Origin: Lysobacter solisilvae
Lineage (GTDB): Bacteria > Pseudomonadota > Gammaproteobacteria > Xanthomonadales > Xanthomonadaceae
Direction of reading: 5' to 3'
Length of the DNA: 64,000 bases
Assembly (NCBI RefSeq): GCF_016613535.2
Contig: NZ_CP071518.1
Span: 3,869,293-3,933,292, forward strand
Shown: positions 8,316 to 15,382 of the stretch, one piece after another
How the letters are laid out: every line of letters begins with the position of its first letter
Numbering within the stretch: the stretch's first letter is position 1
The notes under the pieces: generated by a model
Database searches by the model: none
The model's input: only the letters and a program-made list of their open reading frames with translations
What the model was told of the DNA's origin: nothing
Position numbers and translations under genes: made by a program

Positions 8316-9191
8316 ATGAAACGTCGTTATCTGCAGCTGGACGTGTTCGCCGGCCATCCCGGCGATGGCAATCCCCTCGCCGTCGTGCTCGACGCGCAGG
8401 GCCTGGACGACGTCACGATGCAGGCCATCGCGAAGTGGACCCGGCTCCCGGAGACCACCTTCGTCTTCCCCCCGACGCAGCCCGGGGCGAGCTACCGGAT
8501 CCGCATGTTCAGCCCGCGCCGCGAGGTGCCGTTCGCCGGCCACCCCAGCGTGGGCACCGCGCACGCGGTGCTGGAGGCGGGTCTGGCGACGCCGCGCGAC
8601 GGGTTGCTGATGCAGGAAGGGATCGCCGGCGTGCTGCCGCTGCAGGTCGTCGGCGAGGGCCGCACGCGCACCATCGCGGTCCGTACCCCGCGCGCCCGCG
8701 TGGTCGAAGTCGCCTCCGCGCAGGACCCCCGCCTGGCCCCCGCGCTGCGCGGCCTGGCCCTGGGCGCGCTGCCCCCGGCGCTGATGGACGGCGGCCGCCG
8801 CTGGTGGCTGGCCGAACTGGCCGACGAGGCCGCACTGCGGGGCGCCGAACCGGACTGGGACGCCATCGCGCGGCTCGCCCAGGACACCGAGAGCATGGGC
8901 CTGTTCGTCTACGCGCGCAGCACGGACCCGGTCTACTACTACGCGGTGCGGGCCTTCGTCGGCGCGCCCGCGAGGTTCGAGGACGCCGCCTCCGGCGCGG
9001 CCAACGCAACCCTCGCCGCCTGGCTGGCGTCGCGGGACGCGCTGCCCTCCGCGGACGGCCGCTACCGCGTCAGCCAGGGCCGCGAAGTGGGCCACGACGC
9101 GATCATCGACCTGCGCGTGGACGCCGACGGGGAAGTGTGGTCCGGCGGCCGCGTCTGCGACGTGGTCTCGGGCGAGATCGGCTGGGAGTAA
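8316..9191 (+). CDS. PhzF-family isomerase/epimerase-like protein
   Basis: A 291-residue protein of the PhzF/YddE fold. The N terminus YLQLDVFAGHPGDGNPLAVV has the family's F..G.NPLAV signature. LPETTFV carries the catalytic glutamate near residue 47, and the FAGHPSVGTAHA and EDAASGAANATLAAWL blocks are conserved. Members catalyse isomerisation or epimerisation of small metabolites; the substrate cannot be deduced, and there is no phenazine cluster nearby. A GTG directly before the ATG (8313) is an equally possible start. The gene is divergent from the AK-LysA fusion across about 280 bases. Confidence 0.88.
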   Translation: MKRRYLQLDVFAGHPGDGNPLAVVLDAQGLDDVTMQAIAKWTRLPETTFVFPPTQPGASYRIRMFSPRREVPFAGHPSVGTAHAVLEAGLATPRDGLLMQEGIAGVLPLQVVGEGRTRTIAVRTPRARVVEVASAQDPRLAPALRGLALGALPPALMDGGRRWWLAELADEAALRGAEPDWDAIARLAQDTESMGLFVYARSTDPVYYYAVRAFVGAPARFEDAASGAANATLAAWLASRDALPSADGRYRVSQGREVGHDAIIDLRVDADGEVWSGGRVCDVVSGEIGWE

Positions 9192-9342
9192 GCCGGGCGC
9201 GGCGCCGTCGCGGTGGCGACGGGCGACGAGATGGCATCCTTCCTCCACCGGGCCGGAACATTGCCATGCGTGTGGCTTCGCAACCCGAAGCCAGCCCTGA
9301 GGTTCCCCTACCCCACCCCCTTTCCCGCCTCCGGCTCCCCCC

Positions 9343-10140
9343 ATGACCCAGCTAGCCCACCAGATCGTCTGGATCACCGGCGCTTCCAGCGGCATCGGCG
9401 AGGCGCTCGCCGTCGCCGCCAGCCGGCGGGGCGCCCGTCTCGTGCTGTCCGCGCGGCGCGAGACGGAACTCGAACGCGTGCGCCAGGCCTGCGCGCGGCC
9501 GGACCAGGTCGCATTGCTGCCGGTGGACCTGGCCGCGCTCGAGGATGCCGATGCGCTGACCCGACGAGCCGCCGCCTGCTTCGGCCCCATCGACGTGCTG
9601 GTCAACAACGCCGGCATCTCCCAGCGCACGGCCCTGCTGGACACCGACATGGCGTCCTACCGCCGGCTGTTCGAGGTCGACCTGTTCGCGCCGATCGCGT
9701 TGACGCGCGCGCTGGCACCCGGCTGGGTGGAGCGCGGCGCCGGCCACGTGGTCGTGGTGAGTTCGGTGTTCGGCCACATGGCGATGGCGCGGCGCACCGG
9801 CTATGCGGCCGCCAAGCATGCGCTGCACGGCTTCTTCGACAGCGCACGGATCGAACTGGAACCGCGCGGCGTGCGGTTCACGCTGGCGTGCCCCGGCTTC
9901 GTGCGCACGAACATCTCGGTCAACGCGCTGGGCCCGGGCGGCCAGCCCTTCGGGCGCTCCGACCACGACATCGACGGCGGCATGCCGCCTGCGGTGTGCG
10001 CGGAAAAGATCTGGCGCGCCGTGGAGGCCGATCGCCTGGAAGTGATGATCGCGGGGATCGAACGCGTGCCCGTGTGGATCAAGCGCTACCTGCCGCTGCG
10101 CTGGTATACGGCGTTTGCGCGGCGCTTGAAGGTCAACTAG
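9343..10140 (+). CDS. Short-chain dehydrogenase/reductase
   Basis: A 265-residue classical SDR. TGASSGIG near residue 13 binds NAD(P), followed by NNAG near 92, VVSSVFG with the catalytic serine near 143, and YAAAK with the catalytic Tyr/Lys near 155. Arginine residues after the first strand (SARRETELER) favour NADPH. The C-terminal part resembles DHRS7-like bacterial oxidoreductases. The substrate is unknown. It forms the left boundary of the integron cassette array. Confidence 0.9.
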   Translation: MTQLAHQIVWITGASSGIGEALAVAASRRGARLVLSARRETELERVRQACARPDQVALLPVDLAALEDADALTRRAAACFGPIDVLVNNAGISQRTALLDTDMASYRRLFEVDLFAPIALTRALAPGWVERGAGHVVVVSSVFGHMAMARRTGYAAAKHALHGFFDSARIELEPRGVRFTLACPGFVRTNISVNALGPGGQPFGRSDHDIDGGMPPAVCAEKIWRAVEADRLEVMIAGIERVPVWIKRYLPLRWYTAFARRLKVN

Positions 10141-10211
10141 GCCCTCCCTCTTCCACGGTCGGCAGGGCGAAGAGTCCTGGAGGCTCATGCGGGAACTGTC
10201 GGGTTCGTGGG

Positions 10212-10284
10212 GCCTGACGCCTGAATTAAGCTGGCAGACCAATCGCGTAACGATTGGTCTGTCGGCTTGAATGAATTATCAGGC
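10212..10284 (-). other. attC recombination site 1 (last in the array)
   Basis: The minus strand reads GCCTGAT...CATTCAAGCC, a long central inverted repeat (AGACCAATCG/CGATTGGTCT), then GGCAGCTTAATTCAGGC and GTCAGGC. Both outer boxes deviate by one or two bases from RYYYAAC/GTTRRRY. It terminates the 110-residue cassette ORF and the array as a whole. Confidence 0.78.
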
Positions 10285-10346
10285 CCGCTCACGCGCCGCC
10301 TTCCTGGTACTTGATTGTTCCGGTTAGGCCCCATCACCGGCGACAC

Positions 10347-10679
10347 CTAAGCATTCCCGATTATGAACTGTGCATGCTCTAGCGAGGAGCCGGCGAGGCC
10401 AGGAAGAAGCTTCTCAACTTGACCGACGGGTAGGCGAAGCAAGGGCCAGTTGCACTTGGCATTTGCGATGGCATTGAGAATGCTCTTACCCACCACCGCA
10501 TCCGTTTCACTCGTTAGAGCGTCTCCAAGTGCGTCAAGGACAACTTGAAGCTCACTCGCAGTGATGGATGCGCCCGCTTGCACGAGATCGCCGAGCTCCT
10601 CAGCGGCGAGGTCGCGGCGACGCTCATCACCGTGCGTGAGGTCATCAATAGCTGCTTGGATGCGCGGGATAGTGTCCAC
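10347..10679 (-). CDS. Cassette-encoded hypothetical protein, helical, 110 aa
   Basis: I do not recognise this protein. It is mostly predicted helical, with leucine- and alanine-rich repeating blocks (around residues 20-85) that resemble HEAT-like or immunity-protein folds; this is a guess from composition. The GTG start at 10679 lies only 3 bases beyond attC 2, as often seen in compact cassettes; no good ribosome binding site is seen. It ends 62 bases before attC 1. Confidence 0.65.
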   Translation of the reverse strand: MDTIPRIQAAIDDLTHGDERRRDLAAEELGDLVQAGASITASELQVVLDALGDALTSETDAVVGKSILNAIANAKCNWPLLRLPVGQVEKLLPGLAGSSLEHAQFIIGNA

Positions 10680-10682
10680 AGA

Positions 10683-10738
10683 GCCTAACGCCTGAGTTAA
10701 GCCGCGCCGAAGCCGTCGGCTTCAATGACTAATTAGGC
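10683..10738 (-). other. attC recombination site 2
   Basis: A short 56-base attC. The minus strand begins GCCTAAT, contains CATTGAAGCC and GCGGCTTAACTCAGGC as inner boxes around a GC-rich hairpin, and ends with a perfect GTTAGGC. The stop codon of the next cassette ORF (10733-10735) lies inside it. Confidence 0.85.
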
Positions 10739-11002
10739 ACTGACCGCAGGGAAGGACAACCCAACCTTGCAGTCGGTGCAATAGAAGCCCTCGTCGGCGG
10801 AATTGTGCGGGGTGCGAGGCGAGGAGTAGTACTGGACAGGTGCCAACGTGTCGCAGGCGGCACGAAGGGCTAGCGGCATTCGCTGAGAGAAGTGGACGAC
10901 TTGGCGTGCTTCGGACCAGCCGCTCGAAGTTTCACTTACAGGACAGCCGAGCGCGGTAGCCTGACTGTAGAGCACCGCCAAGTGGCTACACGTTTCAGTC
11001 AT
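10733..11002 (-). CDS. Cassette-encoded hypothetical protein, 89 aa
   Basis: An 89-residue ORF from ATG at 11002 to a TAA that overlaps attC 2. No family is recognised. It has one CxxC pair near the C terminus (FYCTDCKVG) and two more cysteines earlier (CSHLA and ALGCPV), which could bind metal. No signal peptide or membrane segment is evident. Position, orientation and stop codon within attC are those of a genuine cassette gene. Confidence 0.6.
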   Translation of the reverse strand: MTETCSHLAVLYSQATALGCPVSETSSGWSEARQVVHFSQRMPLALRAACDTLAPVQYYSSPRTPHNSADEGFYCTDCKVGLSFPAVSA

Positions 11003-11014
11003 GCCCGTTCCAGT

Positions 11015-11074
11015 GCCTTACGCTTGAATCAAGCCGAGTGGCGAAGCGGCATCGGCTTGAATGGATTGTTAGGC
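11015..11074 (-). other. attC recombination site 3
   Basis: A 60-base site. On the minus strand it runs GCCTAAC, AATCCATTCAAGCC, a GCCGCTTCGC centre, GGCTTGATTCAAGC, and ends GTAAGGC (one mismatch to GTTRRRY). Its inner boxes nearly equal those of the aadA attC. Confidence 0.87.
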
Positions 11075-11272
11075 ATTGTCGGCTTCCAGCTGATTCAAGG
11101 CGAATGTTGCATTCTCATATGCCTCAACGGCAGCTTCGGCGAGCTTCTTCCGGCGATCGCCAGATGCGCGACCACCATCTGTGTATTTGGCATCAAGTTC
11201 CTCCATTCGTTCCGAAACTTCGCGGTCCAGGAATTGGGTGAACACAATTTTGTAGACTTCATTTCGATCCAC
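11069..11272 (-). CDS. Cassette-encoded small hypothetical protein, 67 aa
   Basis: A 67-residue, highly charged and probably all-helical protein. It has Glu/Arg/Lys-rich segments and no cysteine or membrane span. The ATG at 11272 lies 18 bases after attC 4, with GGAG-like purines upstream, and the TAA overlaps attC 3. No known domain is recognised. Confidence 0.6.
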   Translation of the reverse strand: MDRNEVYKIVFTQFLDREVSERMEELDAKYTDGGRASGDRRKKLAEAAVEAYENATFALNQLEADNA

Positions 11273-11290
11273 GATCGTCTCCTGAAGAAA

Positions 11291-11351
11291 GCCTAACGCC
11301 AGAATTAAGCCGAGTCGCGAAGCGGCTTCGGCTTGAATGAATTGTCAGGGC
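11291..11351 (-). other. attC recombination site 4
   Basis: The minus strand reads GCCCTGAC, AATTCATTCAAGCC, a hairpin centre with AGCCGCTTCGCG, GGCTTAATTCTGGC, then a perfect GTTAGGC. The first outer box is degenerate at its edge, so the exact 5' limit (11350 or 11351) is uncertain. Confidence 0.83.
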
Positions 11352-11801
11352 TCATGCCCACCGACGCACAGCCCGCTTGTACGCAGCGTACTCCGCCGGG
11401 AAGCGGGCGGACAGTTGACGCTCCTCAGGCAGAATCTGGAAGCGCGTGACGTAGCCGATGAAGATTGCGACTGCGCCCAGGCCAAGGAGCTTGCCTTGGC
11501 AGATGACCCAGCCCAATAACGCCAATGCGTAGCCCAAGTACATGGGATTGCGCGAGTACCGATACAGCCCCGACGTGATCAGGACAGAGGATCGCTCCGG
11601 GTGGAGAGGGTTGACCGTAGTGCCAGCGCGTCGGAACAGACTCTTGGGCCACGCGTTGATTGAAAGGCCGAGCAAGAGTGCCGGCACCCCAATCGCGGTG
11701 TGCACAGGTGAGTAGATCGATCCGGGCAGTGCCCAGACGATCGTCGCCAACGTGAGAAACAAGAATGGTGGCGGAACCCTTGTTTCGAGAGCCGAGAACA
11801 T
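11352..11801 (-). CDS. Cassette-encoded isoprenylcysteine carboxyl methyltransferase-like membrane protein
   Basis: A 149-residue integral membrane protein with about four hydrophobic segments. The C-terminal half has the family's SAM-binding landmarks: GLYRYSRNPMYLGY near residue 78, LPEER near 128, then F..EY..YK..VRRW at the end. The ICMT/PEMT-like family includes lipid and isoprenyl methyltransferases; the substrate cannot be inferred. It is the only cassette gene here with a recognisable enzymatic fold. The TGA lies exactly at the attC 4 edge. Confidence 0.82.
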   Translation of the reverse strand: MFSALETRVPPPFLFLTLATIVWALPGSIYSPVHTAIGVPALLLGLSINAWPKSLFRRAGTTVNPLHPERSSVLITSGLYRYSRNPMYLGYALALLGWVICQGKLLGLGAVAIFIGYVTRFQILPEERQLSARFPAEYAAYKRAVRRWA

Positions 11802-11811
11802 CCGTCTATGA

Positions 11812-11884
11812 GCCCTAAAGCATGAATTAGGCCGCGGACCAATCGCGCGGCGATTGAGCTGTCGGCTTGAATGAAATGTTAGGC
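11812..11884 (-). other. attC recombination site 5
   Basis: The minus strand begins GCCTAAC, then ATTTCATTCAAGCC, a large centre containing CAATCGCC and GGTCCGCGG, GGCCTAATTCATGC, and a degenerate final box TTTAGGGC. The central arm shares the ACCAATCG block with attC 1. The 3' box is off consensus, so the exact boundary is uncertain by one or two bases. Confidence 0.8.
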
Positions 11885-12393
11885 CTCAGCTGTGCATCTT
11901 GCGGGGGCGGACAAGAACTGTCTGTTGCCACACACACCTCTATGGGCTCTCCGCGCACGCCCGACGCGGAAACAGGTATCACCTCAAAGCGCCACCTCAC
12001 GTGACCATCTTCATCTGGCGTGAGACTAACCCAGCCCCAGGTGAGCGTAAGGGTGCGGCGCCTGATGACGTGTGGTGCCAATGCATGGGAAGGAAAGAGG
12101 CCAGGGTCTCTGACACCTGCAACTGGCCGAACAAAGAAGCCTTGCTTCTTAAGGTGGAGAAATTGCTTCCCAGTGAGTGTGACAACAATAAATCCCACGC
12201 CTGAGCAGCTATCTCCCTCCCCGTCTCCTATGTTGGGGACCAGGTCAACCGACTTCAGCTGAGCTGGAACAGGAGGTTCTTCCGCGGAGTTGGCAGCGTC
12301 GGGCGTGAACGGCTTTGACAAGCTCAGACTGCACGCCAATACATGAGCGGGGGAAGTAGCGAGCAGGAAGAAGAGCGCGAAGAATGCTTTCAT
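11827..12393 (-). CDS. Cassette-encoded exported protein, possible lipoprotein
   Basis: The start at 12393 gives MKAFFALFFLLATSPAHVLAC, a signal peptide that could end at Ala-Cys (weak lipobox VLAC). The mature part has no recognised domain; it contains a Trp-rich strand region (TLTWGWVSLTPDEDGHVRWRFEV) and several cysteines. The last 20 or so residues (RPNISFKPTA...) are simply translated attC 5 sequence, so the frame runs into the recombination site. The in-frame upstream extension to 12477 is likewise translated attC 6 and is rejected. Confidence 0.7.
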   Translation of the reverse strand: MKAFFALFFLLATSPAHVLACSLSLSKPFTPDAANSAEEPPVPAQLKSVDLVPNIGDGEGDSCSGVGFIVVTLTGKQFLHLKKQGFFVRPVAGVRDPGLFPSHALAPHVIRRRTLTLTWGWVSLTPDEDGHVRWRFEVIPVSASGVRGEPIEVCVATDSSCPPPQDAQLRPNISFKPTAQSPRDWSAA

Positions 12394-12396
12394 GAG

Positions 12397-12457
12397 GCCT
12401 GACGCCTGAACTAAGCCGCGCCGCGAAGTGGCGTTCGGCTTGAATGAATTGTTGGAC
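12397..12457 (-). other. attC recombination site 6 (first in the array)
   Basis: The minus strand begins GTCCAAC, a perfect RYYYAAC, then AATTCATTCAAGCC, a centre with CACTTCGCGG, GGCTTAGTTCAGGC, and GTCAGGC. It separates the possible lipoprotein cassette from the 62-residue ORF at the high-coordinate end of the array. Confidence 0.85.
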
Positions 12458-12461
12458 GTGC

Positions 12462-12650
12462 CTACGCAGACCAGCAATACAGGGGGCTGCCGAACACGCC
12501 GTGTGCGCCAAGGTTGCTTGGACTCTCACCCCAAAAGCAACAGAAGCGGTCCTGTTCTGGCTGGTACACAAGCCAGTAGCCAGCTTGATGAGCGATGCCT
12601 TGGCCAGAAATGACATTGCCTGGGGCCATGTCCGGGAAGCCAGGTGACAT
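12462..12650 (-). CDS. Cassette-encoded hypothetical protein, 62 aa
   Basis: Start at 12650 (MSPGFPDMAPG), with an alternative ATG at 12629; the stop lies 4 bases before attC 6. It is rich in aromatics and Gly (AGYWLVYQPEQDRFCCFWG). No family is recognised. The frame stays open upstream to 13049, but that part crosses the tandem repeats and is not protein-like. No attC or attI box is found upstream of it, so its own cassette boundary at the high-coordinate side is missing or destroyed. Confidence 0.55.
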   Translation of the reverse strand: MSPGFPDMAPGNVISGQGIAHQAGYWLVYQPEQDRFCCFWGESPSNLGAHGVFGSPLYCWSA

Positions 12651-13323
12651 GACCGTGGCACTCGCCGCGGCAGTCCGACGGTGCGCCGTCGGCGGCCCGG
12701 CGACGCATGCCGGCGAGTGCTCGGGTTCGCCAAATCGGTGCCCGCGAGGACCTGCCGGTGTTCCCGGCCGGGCCGCGCCGGTGCTCGGCCGGCCCCGCGG
12801 TGCTAGGCAGCATGTCGACGCGTGCTCGGGTTCGCCAAATCGGTGCTCGCGAGCACCTGTCGGTGTTCTCGGCCGGGCCGCGCCGGTGCTCGGCCGGGCC
12901 CCCGCGGTGCTAGGCAGCATGTCGACGCGTGCTCGGGTTCGCCAAATCGGTGCTCGCGAGGACCTGCCGGTGTTCTCGGCCGGGCCGCGCCGGTGCTCGG
13001 CCGGGCCCTCGCGGTGCGAGGCAGCATGTCGGCGCGTGCGTCGCTGCACCGATTTGGTGCGTCAGCGGGTGCGGCGGGGCCGACGCAGAACGCTGCCCCG
13101 TGCTCGGCTGGACCGCGGTGGCGAGCTGGAGGACCGCAGCCGGTGCTCGCCCTGCCCTCCCCGCCAGTGGAAGCGCTCCAGCGTTCACCCCGGGCGGCAG
13201 GGTGGCGGGGCCAAGGAGCGCGGGCGACCGGACCAGGTCTCCCGCAGCGAGGGCGCGGCGTGGCGGCCCAGGTCTACCCGCCGGCGGTGCCGATCCGCGC
13301 AAGCGGGCGAAGGAGTACCCCCA
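12651..13323. other. Gene-free GC-rich interval with minisatellite
   Basis: No credible coding sequence is seen. It holds a perfect hairpin at about 12675-12692 (CCGACGG/CCGTCGG), three 105-107 bp tandem repeats, an inverted partial copy near 13047-13061 (GCACCGATTTGGTGC), and then unstructured GC-rich sequence up to the terminator of the glycine-zipper gene. Open frames here exist on both strands but shift between repeat copies. Confidence 0.7.
12718..13036. repeat. Three tandem repeats of 105-107 bp
   Basis: Copies are at 12718-12822, 12823-12929 and 12930-13036. Each begins TGCTCGGGTTCGCCAAATCG and ends at GCATGTCGRCGCG. They differ at a handful of bases plus a 2-base indel. Unit lengths of 105 and 107 bp break any shared reading frame, which argues against a coding repeat. 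The array sits exactly where an integrase/attI would be expected beside the cassette array. Confidence 0.9.
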
Positions 13324-13324
13324 T

Positions 13325-13350
13325 AAAAAAAGGGGCCCGAAGGCCCCTTT
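13325..13350 (-). terminator. Rho-independent terminator of the glycine-zipper gene
   Basis: Read on the minus strand: a 9-bp stem AAAGGGGCC/GGCCCCTTT with a TTCG tetraloop, followed by a run of seven T. It lies 25 bases after the stop codon at 13375. Confidence 0.92.
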
Positions 13351-13374
13351 CCAGTTCACGCGGCAGCGGTCGCG

Positions 13375-14160
13375 TCACTCCGCATGCACGTCCACGCGCA
13401 CGCGGATGCGGTCTCCGGGGTGGTAGCTGGTGCGCGCGGTGTACTGCTGGCCCGCGTACTCGTAGGTCACGTCGTAGGCATTCACCGAACGGTCGCCCGA
13501 CTGGCCGGTCTGGTAGCTGTCGTACGGACGGTCGGCCGGGACGGGATCGCAGACGGTGACGGTGCCGACGCGGGCCTGCTGCTGCGCGGCGCGCTGGCGC
13601 TGTTCGTAGACGCTGCGGCCGGCCATGCCGCCCACCATCGAGCCGATCGCCGAGGTCGCGTAGCGCGCGCTGCCGCCGCCCACCTGGCTGCCGATCGCCG
13701 CGCCCAGGATGCCGCCGATGACGGTGGCGACGGTCGCGCCGGTCTGGGTGCCGTAGCGGCGGTTGCCGTACTGATCGTAGGCGCCGTCGTTGTAGCCGTT
13801 GTTGTTGTAACCGTTGTTGCTGTAGCCGTTGTTGCTGTAGCCGCCGTTGTTGTAACCGTTGTTGCTGTAGCCGTTGTTGCTGTAGCCGCCGTTGTTGTAA
13901 CCGTTGTTGTTGTAGCGGTCGCCGGCCACTTGCTGCTGGCGCTCGTAGCAACGCTGACCCGAGGTCGGGTAGCTGCCGCCGTTGTATCCGGAATCGAAAA
14001 CCGGATCGACCCGCAGCACGCGCGCATAGTCGTAACGCGTGCCGGTGGACTGTCCGTACGACTGTCCATTGGAGGACGAGCCGTTGTAGGTCTGCGCCTG
14101 GGCCAGGCCGGTCGTGGCGGCCAGGCACAGGGCCAGGGAGGTAACGAGCACGCGCTTCAT
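13375..14160 (-). CDS. Glycine-zipper 2TM-domain outer-membrane protein
   Basis: A 261-residue exported protein. The start at 14160 gives signal peptide MKRVLVTSLALCLAATTGLAQA. Residues about 80-130 are a tandem Asn/Gly/Tyr repeat (NNGY, SNNGY, NNGGY units). A glycine-zipper segment (ATVIGGILGAAIGSQVGGG ... IGSMVGGMAG) follows near 140-175, as in SlyB/Rick17kDa-type envelope proteins. A C-terminal beta-rich region (YDVTYEYAGQQYTARTSY) completes it. The Asn/Tyr repeat arises from repeated codons and probably varies between strains (inference). Confidence 0.87.
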   Translation of the reverse strand: MKRVLVTSLALCLAATTGLAQAQTYNGSSSNGQSYGQSTGTRYDYARVLRVDPVFDSGYNGGSYPTSGQRCYERQQQVAGDRYNNNGYNNGGYSNNGYSNNGYNNGGYSNNGYSNNGYNNNGYNDGAYDQYGNRRYGTQTGATVATVIGGILGAAIGSQVGGGSARYATSAIGSMVGGMAGRSVYEQRQRAAQQQARVGTVTVCDPVPADRPYDSYQTGQSGDRSVNAYDVTYEYAGQQYTARTSYHPGDRIRVRVDVHAE

Positions 14161-14253
14161 GGTCGACTCCAGCACGCCGGGAATTGGCGTGGGCGGATCG
14201 TCGGTCCGCCGCGTCCAACCCGGGCTGAATCTGGCCGCCGCTTGATGTTCCGT

Positions 14254-14937
14254 TCACACCCCCGACAGCCACCGTGCCACGCGGTCGGCCAGGCCGTTGG
14301 CGCCCATACCGAGCAGCGGACCGGCGTGGCTGGGCGAATCGGCTTCGAGGAGGGTGGCCGGCAGCGCCTGCGCCAGGGCCCGCGTCAGGGCGGGCGGTAC
14401 ATCTTCGTCAGCCGCCGACACCACGCACAGCACCGGCACGGACGGCGGCGGCAGCGCCAGGCCTTCGTGGGCCGCGCGCAGCACGGCGCCCGACTCATCG
14501 CGCCAGTGGCGCATCGCGTACAGCGCGGTCGCCGGGTCCGCGTCGGGGATTGCGCGCCGCGTCGACGACAACCGCGCCTGGCATCCCCATGGCACCACCG
14601 CCGGCCACTCCCGCGACGGCAGCCGCGAGGCCCAGGGAGCCGGCGGCAGTGGATTCACCAGCACCAGCGCGTCGGCGGCCTCGGCGCAGGCCCAGGCGAG
14701 CAGACCGCCCAGGCTGGCGCCGATGACGGCGCGCGGGCGCGGCAACGCGTCGAGCGCCGCCCGCGCCTGTTCGACGTAGTCCGCCAGGGTGGTGGCGGCC
14801 AGACCCGCCGCGGCGGGCTGCAGGTCCGGCGCGGCGACCGTGATCCCGTGCGCGGCCAAGGCGCCGTGCCAGCGGTTCCATTCCCAACCTCCGCCGCCGG
14901 CACCGTGCAGCAGCAGCGCGTGCCGGCAGGCGGGCAC
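14254..14937 (-). CDS. Alpha/beta-hydrolase
   Basis: A 227-residue hydrolase with the oxyanion motif LLHGAGGGG at residue 9, the nucleophile elbow IGASLGG near 72, an acidic residue in SAADEDVP near 175 and a histidine in SPSHAGPL near 203. The substrate is unknown. It starts 7 bases after the osmC stop codon, so the two are probably co-transcribed. Confidence 0.82.
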   Translation of the reverse strand: MPACRHALLLHGAGGGGWEWNRWHGALAAHGITVAAPDLQPAAAGLAATTLADYVEQARAALDALPRPRAVIGASLGGLLAWACAEAADALVLVNPLPPAPWASRLPSREWPAVVPWGCQARLSSTRRAIPDADPATALYAMRHWRDESGAVLRAAHEGLALPPPSVPVLCVVSAADEDVPPALTRALAQALPATLLEADSPSHAGPLLGMGANGLADRVARWLSGV

Positions 14938-14944
14938 GCCCGGC

Positions 14945-15382
14945 TCAGGCCTGCAGCGTGGCCGAGAGCGTCACCGGCACCGACAGCGCGCGCGAAATCA
15001 CGCAACCGGCCTTGGCCGCCTCGGCGATCTGCTGGAACTGCTCGGCGCTGATCCCCGGCACGCTGGCCTCCACGATCAGGTGCACGCCGGTGACGGTGGG
15101 GCCCGGGTCCATGCCCGGCTCCATCATGGCCTCGGCCCGCGTGCTGATGCGGTCGGGGGTGAAGCCGCTCTTACCCAGTACGGCCGACAGCGCCATGCTG
15201 AAGCAGCCCGCGTGCGCGGCGGCCAGCAGTTCTTCGGGATTGGTGCCCTTCTCGTCGCCGAAACGGGTCTTGAACGAGTAGTTCTGGTCGGCGAACAGGC
15301 CGCTCTGCGGCGTGCTCATCGTGCCCTTGCCGGCCTGCAGGTCGCCGTTCCAGACGGCCGTGGCGTAGCGCTTGAAACCCAT
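14945..15382 (-). CDS. osmC: OsmC-family peroxidase
   Basis: A 145-residue OsmC/Ohr-fold thiol peroxidase that reduces organic hydroperoxides. Both redox cysteines are seen: AAHAGCFSMALS near residue 60 and AAKAGCVISRAL near 125. The NPEELLAAAHA block is typical of the OsmC branch rather than Ohr. The ATG at 15382 is preceded by AAGGAG at good spacing. It is divergent from the EF-G-like gene. Confidence 0.9.
   Translation of the reverse strand: MGFKRYATAVWNGDLQAGKGTMSTPQSGLFADQNYSFKTRFGDEKGTNPEELLAAAHAGCFSMALSAVLGKSGFTPDRISTRAEAMMEPGMDPGPTVTGVHLIVEASVPGISAEQFQQIAEAAKAGCVISRALSVPVTLSATLQA

Follow-up and report, generated by a model that had tools for sequence, protein, structure and literature searches.

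A six-site attC array remote from the integron integrase of Lysobacter solisilvae, with an apparently truncated cassette gene at its integrase-side boundary

The cassette array and its attC sites

The stretch of DNA analysed here, which we call the window, comprises 64,000 nucleotides of Lysobacter solisilvae (contig NZ_CP071518.1, positions 3,869,293 to 3,933,292), and between an SDR gene (9343-10140, plus strand) and a Gly-zipper gene (13375-14175, minus strand) it carries a small array of integron cassettes. The minus strand of 10211-12459 holds six attC-like sites, interleaved with six small open reading frames (ORFs) of the same strand, five of them in complete cassettes and one in a cassette that is apparently truncated. 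An earlier note, made from the sequence of the window alone, had described this alternation and had called the DNA clearly lower in GC, as it is: the GC content of 10211-12650 is 0.576, against a mean of 0.688 (sd 0.022) in 616 sliding windows of 2440 bases, the minimum of which (0.577) falls at 10201.

We called attC sites with two covariance models of our own and not with IntegronFinder. Model R1 was built from the six sites of the window and recovers those by construction; for model R2 we used 31 attC sites from the main integron, which lies elsewhere in the same genome, and none from the window, but its training sites were chosen among R1 hits and it is therefore not fully independent of the window sites. 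R2 recovered all six sites, at 80.6 to 44.9 bits and E-values of 2.5e-23 to 8.6e-12, all on the minus strand, so that the six sites in one orientation claimed by the note are borne out by a covariance model of our own. The strongest match is attC3 (11290-11352; 80.6 bits, E 2.5e-23), the site nearest to the main-array consensus, followed by attC1 (12396-12459; 70.4 bits, E 5.2e-20), attC4 (11014-11076; 66.0 bits, E 1.3e-18), attC6 (10211-10286; 52.1 bits, E 4.1e-14), attC5 (10682-10740; 49.5 bits, E 2.8e-13) and attC2 (11812-11886; 44.9 bits, E 8.6e-12); attC2 and attC6 are of a long stem type and attC5 has a short central arm. R2 makes 12 matches in the window at E<=10; of the remaining six, three are shadows of the sites on the opposite strand (E 0.0095, 0.058 and 0.17) and three lie away from them (E 0.12, 0.38 and 0.69).

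The window sites have complementary R''/R' and L''/L' boxes flanking a variable terminal arm, although the R pairs are mismatched in attC1 to attC4 and the predicted plus-strand fold of attC1 lacks the R arm. When plus-strand single-stranded DNA folds were compared with those of shuffled sequences, attC6 (z -7.4) and attC4 (z -5.1) stood out and the other four sites gave z of -1.3 to -1.6; the two minus-strand folds that were made gave z -6.8 (attC6) and z -0.7 (attC3). A search of the whole window with Rfam at gathering thresholds returned no family. Support for attC identity that is independent of R1 and R2 comes from plasmids: blastn of 10139-13328 matched 3580 of 72,556 records, with no single place covering 80% of the query, and the 15 matches listed cover 6% of the query; in 14 of these 15 the annotation beneath the match is that of a resistance cassette, namely aadA7, aadA5/aadA4 or fosE.

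A tblastn search of the window with the genome's own IntI yielded no integrase (best E 1.3), and no attI was found in 9000-15000, where the best blastn match is 23 nt at ~14.7 kb (E 0.05). By the published definition, at least two attC sites with no integron integrase adjacent, the array is a cluster of attC sites lacking integron integrases (CALIN). A complete integron has intI and attI beside its cassettes; here the integrase-side boundary is a different sequence, element R. The absence of integrase and attI stated in the note thus holds locally, but integrase is not absent from the genome as a whole, which has an open intI and 61 attC hits at another locus.

The integrase-side junction and the insertion site

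Element R (12660-13267, minus strand) is 76% GC, contains 107-bp tandem units at 12688-13113 and is homologous to the flank beyond the intI of the main integron. The alignment shows 75% identity over 409 nt (E 1.5e-71) with contig positions 1,327,266-1,327,674, ~80 nt past the end of intI, and its local score of 294 compares with a maximum of 41 in 200 dinucleotide shuffles and 37 on the opposite strand; it is the one long match to R elsewhere in the genome among the best 40 of 165 first-look candidates, which were the ones scored. Read in the direction of the cassettes, the main integron presents R, intI on the opposite strand, a presumed attI and the cassettes, and the window presents R and then the cassettes, in the same orientation.

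R meets cassette 1 at 12660-12662 with a three-nucleotide overlap, AGT: the alignment of R to the main-integron flank stops at 12660, and 12662 is where the alignment with L116, a relative of cassette 1, sets in, the cassette side of the junction resting at the DNA level on this single relative. What remains of the cassette 1 gene (12462-12662, minus strand) is a 3' part, with 62 residues from its ATG. Among 296 other genomes of the family, a set with one genome per species, seven contain relatives. Of seven relatives fetched, a weak one (L122) is embedded in an attC array, L119 has one attC hit ~1.4 kb off and five are without any. In the six of the seven whose upstream sequence was read, there are open frames of 115-158 residues, counted from stop to end (L116 with masked stretches), and their N-terminal halves are similar to each other. 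Because these halves have no counterpart in the window upstream of 12662, where R replaces them, cassette 1 appears from these comparisons to be a truncated gene that has lost its 5' half. The first ORF of the note (12462-12650) stands, accordingly, as an ORF alternating with the sites and apparently as a 3' half, not as a whole gene. The join between R and the truncated cassette fits the orientation expected after loss of intI, attI and half of cassette 1.

The array belongs to a longer inserted stretch. Whereas the note had given 10212..12650, which fits the array itself, homology to congeners ends at ~10138 on the left and restarts at ~13329 on the right, making an insertion of 3.2 kb at 10139-13328. 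Elsewhere the SDR and Gly-zipper genes are separated by ~120 bp in Lysobacter sp. Root494 (L052), by ~40 bp in a second congener (G001, L061) and by ~100 bp in a more distant metagenome-assembled genome (L054). With L052 and L062 (G002) counted as one genome, the insertion is absent at the equivalent junction in the two congeneric genomes compared, and the six SDR loci searched for attC gave no hit at E<=1. No tRNA or tmRNA that could have served as an insertion site was found in the window, and visual inspection of the two border stretches revealed no target duplication.

At the same junction Pseudoxanthomonas yeongjuensis carries a different stretch of ~2 kb in which attC was not hit (L053:10795-12868), so the junction between the SDR and Gly-zipper genes may be a spot that tolerates insertions. 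The Gly-zipper gene of the window has a stretch of 15-bp tandem repeats at 13737-13919.

The main integron, other satellites and the cassette genes

The genome is a single contig of 3,933,292 bases, and the search for intI elsewhere in the chromosome that the note had suggested found one, at 1.33 Mb on the same contig as the array. The integron-integrase family search gave one strong hit in the genome (1,327,755-1,328,699, minus strand) at 360 bits, below the model's own cut-off of 435; the same model also hits all 14 control genomes, none above the cut-off, and makes four weak hits at two other places in the L. solisilvae genome. The hit is an open frame of 344 amino acids that scores 496 bits against TIGR02249 (cut-off 265). 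To the right of intI lie 61 plus-strand R2 hits at E<=0.01 (8, 31 and 22 in the fetched stretches L006, L007 and L042), and the main integron as a whole spans ~1,327,750-1,360,180. Along the contig, 2.55 Mb separate intI from the array; on a circular chromosome the distance in the opposite direction would be ~1.4 Mb. The window array is therefore a satellite in an integron-bearing genome.

Three types of central arm can be told apart by eye among the 31 main-array sites that were aligned, and attC3 with attC4, attC1, and attC2 with attC6 fit these; over 59 nt, attC3 shares 94.9% identity with several sites of the main array. At the protein level, the only match between the window cassettes and the main array is in the C-terminal tail of the cassette 2 product, which runs into attC2. 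Close to intI the main array contains cassettes that recur with a period of 354 bp and are apparently non-coding (L006:11670-14001 and L007:1-1917), with 5.4 copies in L007 and similar units, by eye, in L006. The main integron seems to lie at different loci in congeners: neither glmS nor the hypothetical gene beside it is matched in the 9 kb around intI fetched from G001 and G002 (L109 and L110), and IntI identity between these two genomes and L. solisilvae is 65-68%. The integron locus of the congeners lies next to a DUF885-like gene; its two neighbour genes were not found in the fetched stretches of the L. solisilvae genome or in the window.

Seven more attC-like clusters (L043-L049) lie near 3.164, 2.592, 2.052, 1.774, 3.331, 2.630 and 1.552 Mb, with 7, 4, 4, 9, 3, 4 and 2 same-strand R2 hits, respectively. 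Some of these, among the weaker clusters, may have arisen by chance, and sites may also have been missed, since the genome-wide R1 scan scored the best 150 of 1857 first-look candidates. Beyond attC, no cassette body is common at the DNA level to the window and these satellites, and none of the seven stretches matches R at E<=1e-3.

The crossover core appears eroded in the window and, steeply with distance from intI, in the main array. The R' core is GTT in two of the six window sites (attC3 and attC5), GTC in attC1 and attC6, GTA in attC4 and TTT in attC2. In successive 8-kb blocks from intI (contig positions 1329000-1361000), R' GTT is present in 21/21, 15/17, 5/14 and 2/9 main-array sites (43/61 in total) and R'' AAC in 21/21, 15/17, 2/14 and 1/9; the boxes were read at fixed offsets from the hit ends, and weak distal sites may be mis-registered. 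Among the satellites, L043 keeps GTT in 7/7 sites and L044-L049 in 2/4, 0/4, 3/9, 0/3, 0/4 and 0/2. Because the GTT core is left in two of its six sites, the array is probably mostly frozen, and its sites could still be targets for the distant IntI acting in trans.

The five remaining cassette genes, all on the minus strand, are largely anonymous. Cassette 3 (11352-11801) encodes 149 amino acids, and its product is the only one to pass a Pfam or NCBIfam cut-off, as a PEMT-type methyltransferase (PF04191, 47.2 bits, cut-off 25). The note had rightly credited one product with a recognisable fold, though its label, ICMT-like, is not borne out, the ICMT score (20.3 bits) being below the cut-off of 24; a sequence search of the PDB gave no match. 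Relatives of cassette 3 occur in 74 of the 296 other genomes at E<=1e-10, and two of 11 fetched (L134 and L139) are flanked by attC hits on both sides, so the cassette 3 relative is also a cassette there. Cassette 2 (11827-12393, 188 amino acids) has by eye a probable lipoprotein signal, and relatives of its first 168 residues are found in 26/296 genomes, with an attC hit at 0/7 fetched loci. The ORF of cassette 5 (10733-11002, 89 amino acids) matches no family and has relatives in 9/296 genomes, all of a single genus (0/5 fetched with an attC hit). Cassettes 4 (11069-11272, 67 amino acids) and 6 (10347-10679, 110 amino acids) both start with GTG, preceded in cassette 4 by AGGAG, and neither product has a family above cut-off; cassette 6 has no relative in the 296 genomes at E<=1e-5. 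The gene content is thus less undescribed than the note had supposed, four of the five products searched (cassettes 1, 2, 3 and 5) having relatives in these genomes and cassette 6 none. None of the six products has a PADLOC match at E<=0.1, and the family libraries used gave no resistance match for any of them.

Origin of the array and its relation to known systems

The reading that we favour, at a probability of about 0.6, is that the boundary between R and cassette 1 is a fusion left by deletion of intI, attI and half of cassette 1, making the array the decapitated end of an integron. On this view, duplication or transfer would first have brought an integron end comprising R, intI, attI and cassettes to the interval that separates the SDR gene from the Gly-zipper gene; intI and attI would then have been deleted together with the front half of the cassette 1 gene, the ends being joined at the 3-nt overlap, and cassette gain through attI would no longer have been possible afterwards. 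In its favour stand the attC sites themselves, the open IntI frame with its array elsewhere, the arm types that five of the six window sites have in common with that array, the empty site in two congeners, the order and orientation of R relative to the cassettes, the junction at 12660-12662, the apparent truncation of cassette 1 and the retention of GTT in two of six sites. No intermediate, nor a relative with intI at this locus, was seen among the genomes compared. That a single deletion, with endpoints in R and inside cassette gene 1, beheaded a second integron end in this way we hold to be slightly better than an even bet. If the reading is correct, at least this CALIN would be a decapitated integron, and not a set of cassettes scattered by IntI via attG-type sites.

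Several observations weigh against it. The R copies are only ~75% identical, which would make the duplication old or the copy one from elsewhere. In 59 other genomes, with at most 11 candidates scored per genome, R has short matches only (51 nt in G029 and 35 nt in G010), so R is not established as an ancestral integron flank, and none of the fetched loci of relatives that were compared has R beside intI. R also looks like a GC-rich repeat, as the 40 candidates scored include weak matches near 985.6 kb. No intI remnant was found in the window and no attI remnant in 9000-15000. The shorter arm of attC5 is of a type absent from the 31 aligned main-array sites, no cassette body is common to the window and the main array at the DNA level, and the loss of GTT in the window does not differ significantly from that of the whole main array (2/6 vs 43/61, p 0.085).

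The resident IntI may instead have moved main-integron cassettes here through a non-classical, attG-type site, R having come or expanded later and cut cassette 1, a course of events that we regard as possible but doubtful. The insertion of integron cassettes at attG sites has reportedly been published, by Loot in 2024, and is described in PMC12444791; moreover, most attC types of the window match the resident integron, the IntI frame is open, and the seven satellite stretches without an R match indicate that satellites can exist without it. Insertion of this type should leave G and then TTRRRY; here the side on which that trace should remain is lost at the R junction, and it would be left to chance that R lies on the integrase side and is oriented as expected. 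It is still less likely, and in our judgement improbable, that recombination, or transfer from some related species, carried a block of cassette array and flank into a locus that never held intI. Such a block would account for the ~75% identity of the R copies, for cassette bodies not shared with the main array and for the lack of a target duplication by eye in the two border stretches, yet the fusion of R with the cassette would have to predate the transfer, an extra step, and no donor with a long R match appeared among the candidates scored in the 59 other genomes. As for the reading in which the sites are some other palindromic intergenic repeat and not attC at all, we found no point in its favour and give it practically no weight; against it stand the R2 matches, the alignment with the main-array sites, the plasmid matches at resistance cassettes and the regular alternation with ORFs.

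The main integron of the same genome is one of the nearest points of comparison, with similar attC sites and central-arm types common to five of the six window sites by eye; it differs in having intI and 61 attC hits and in sharing no cassette bodies with the window. A local absence of integrase can hence mislead, as a large integron may lie elsewhere in the same genome. The aadA-type layout recognised in the note appears to be that of the Xanthomonadales-like attC type, a clade that, as described in PMC8352920, includes the sites of the aadA1a, aadA7 and fosE cassettes and has Lysobacter among its hosts. The window sites are alike in sequence and layout, by their similarity to the aadA7, aadA5/aadA4 and fosE plasmid sites, but the window products have no resistance-family match in the libraries used.

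As defined by IntegronFinder, a CALIN has at least two attC sites and no integrase nearby, and that survey (PMC9024848) gives a mean of almost 6 attC per CALIN, counts 2961 integrase-less arrays vs 2760 complete integrons and mentions a proposal that CALINs are degraded integrons; the six sites of the window are near the reported mean, though called by our own models instead. In Xanthomonas, CALINs remote from intI are reported in ~50% of genomes (PMC12444791, in the part available). These are alike in having at least two attC sites remote from intI and in belonging to the same family, and they differ in genus and locus; no junction of a truncated cassette gene with an intI-flank element is described for them in that part of the source, our literature search not having been aimed at such junctions. 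The kind of element is already known, stranded arrays being frequent in the group, and its readable integrase-side junction may add something, as one case whose anatomy allows the degraded-integron route to be argued, insertion in trans by IntI being the other route.

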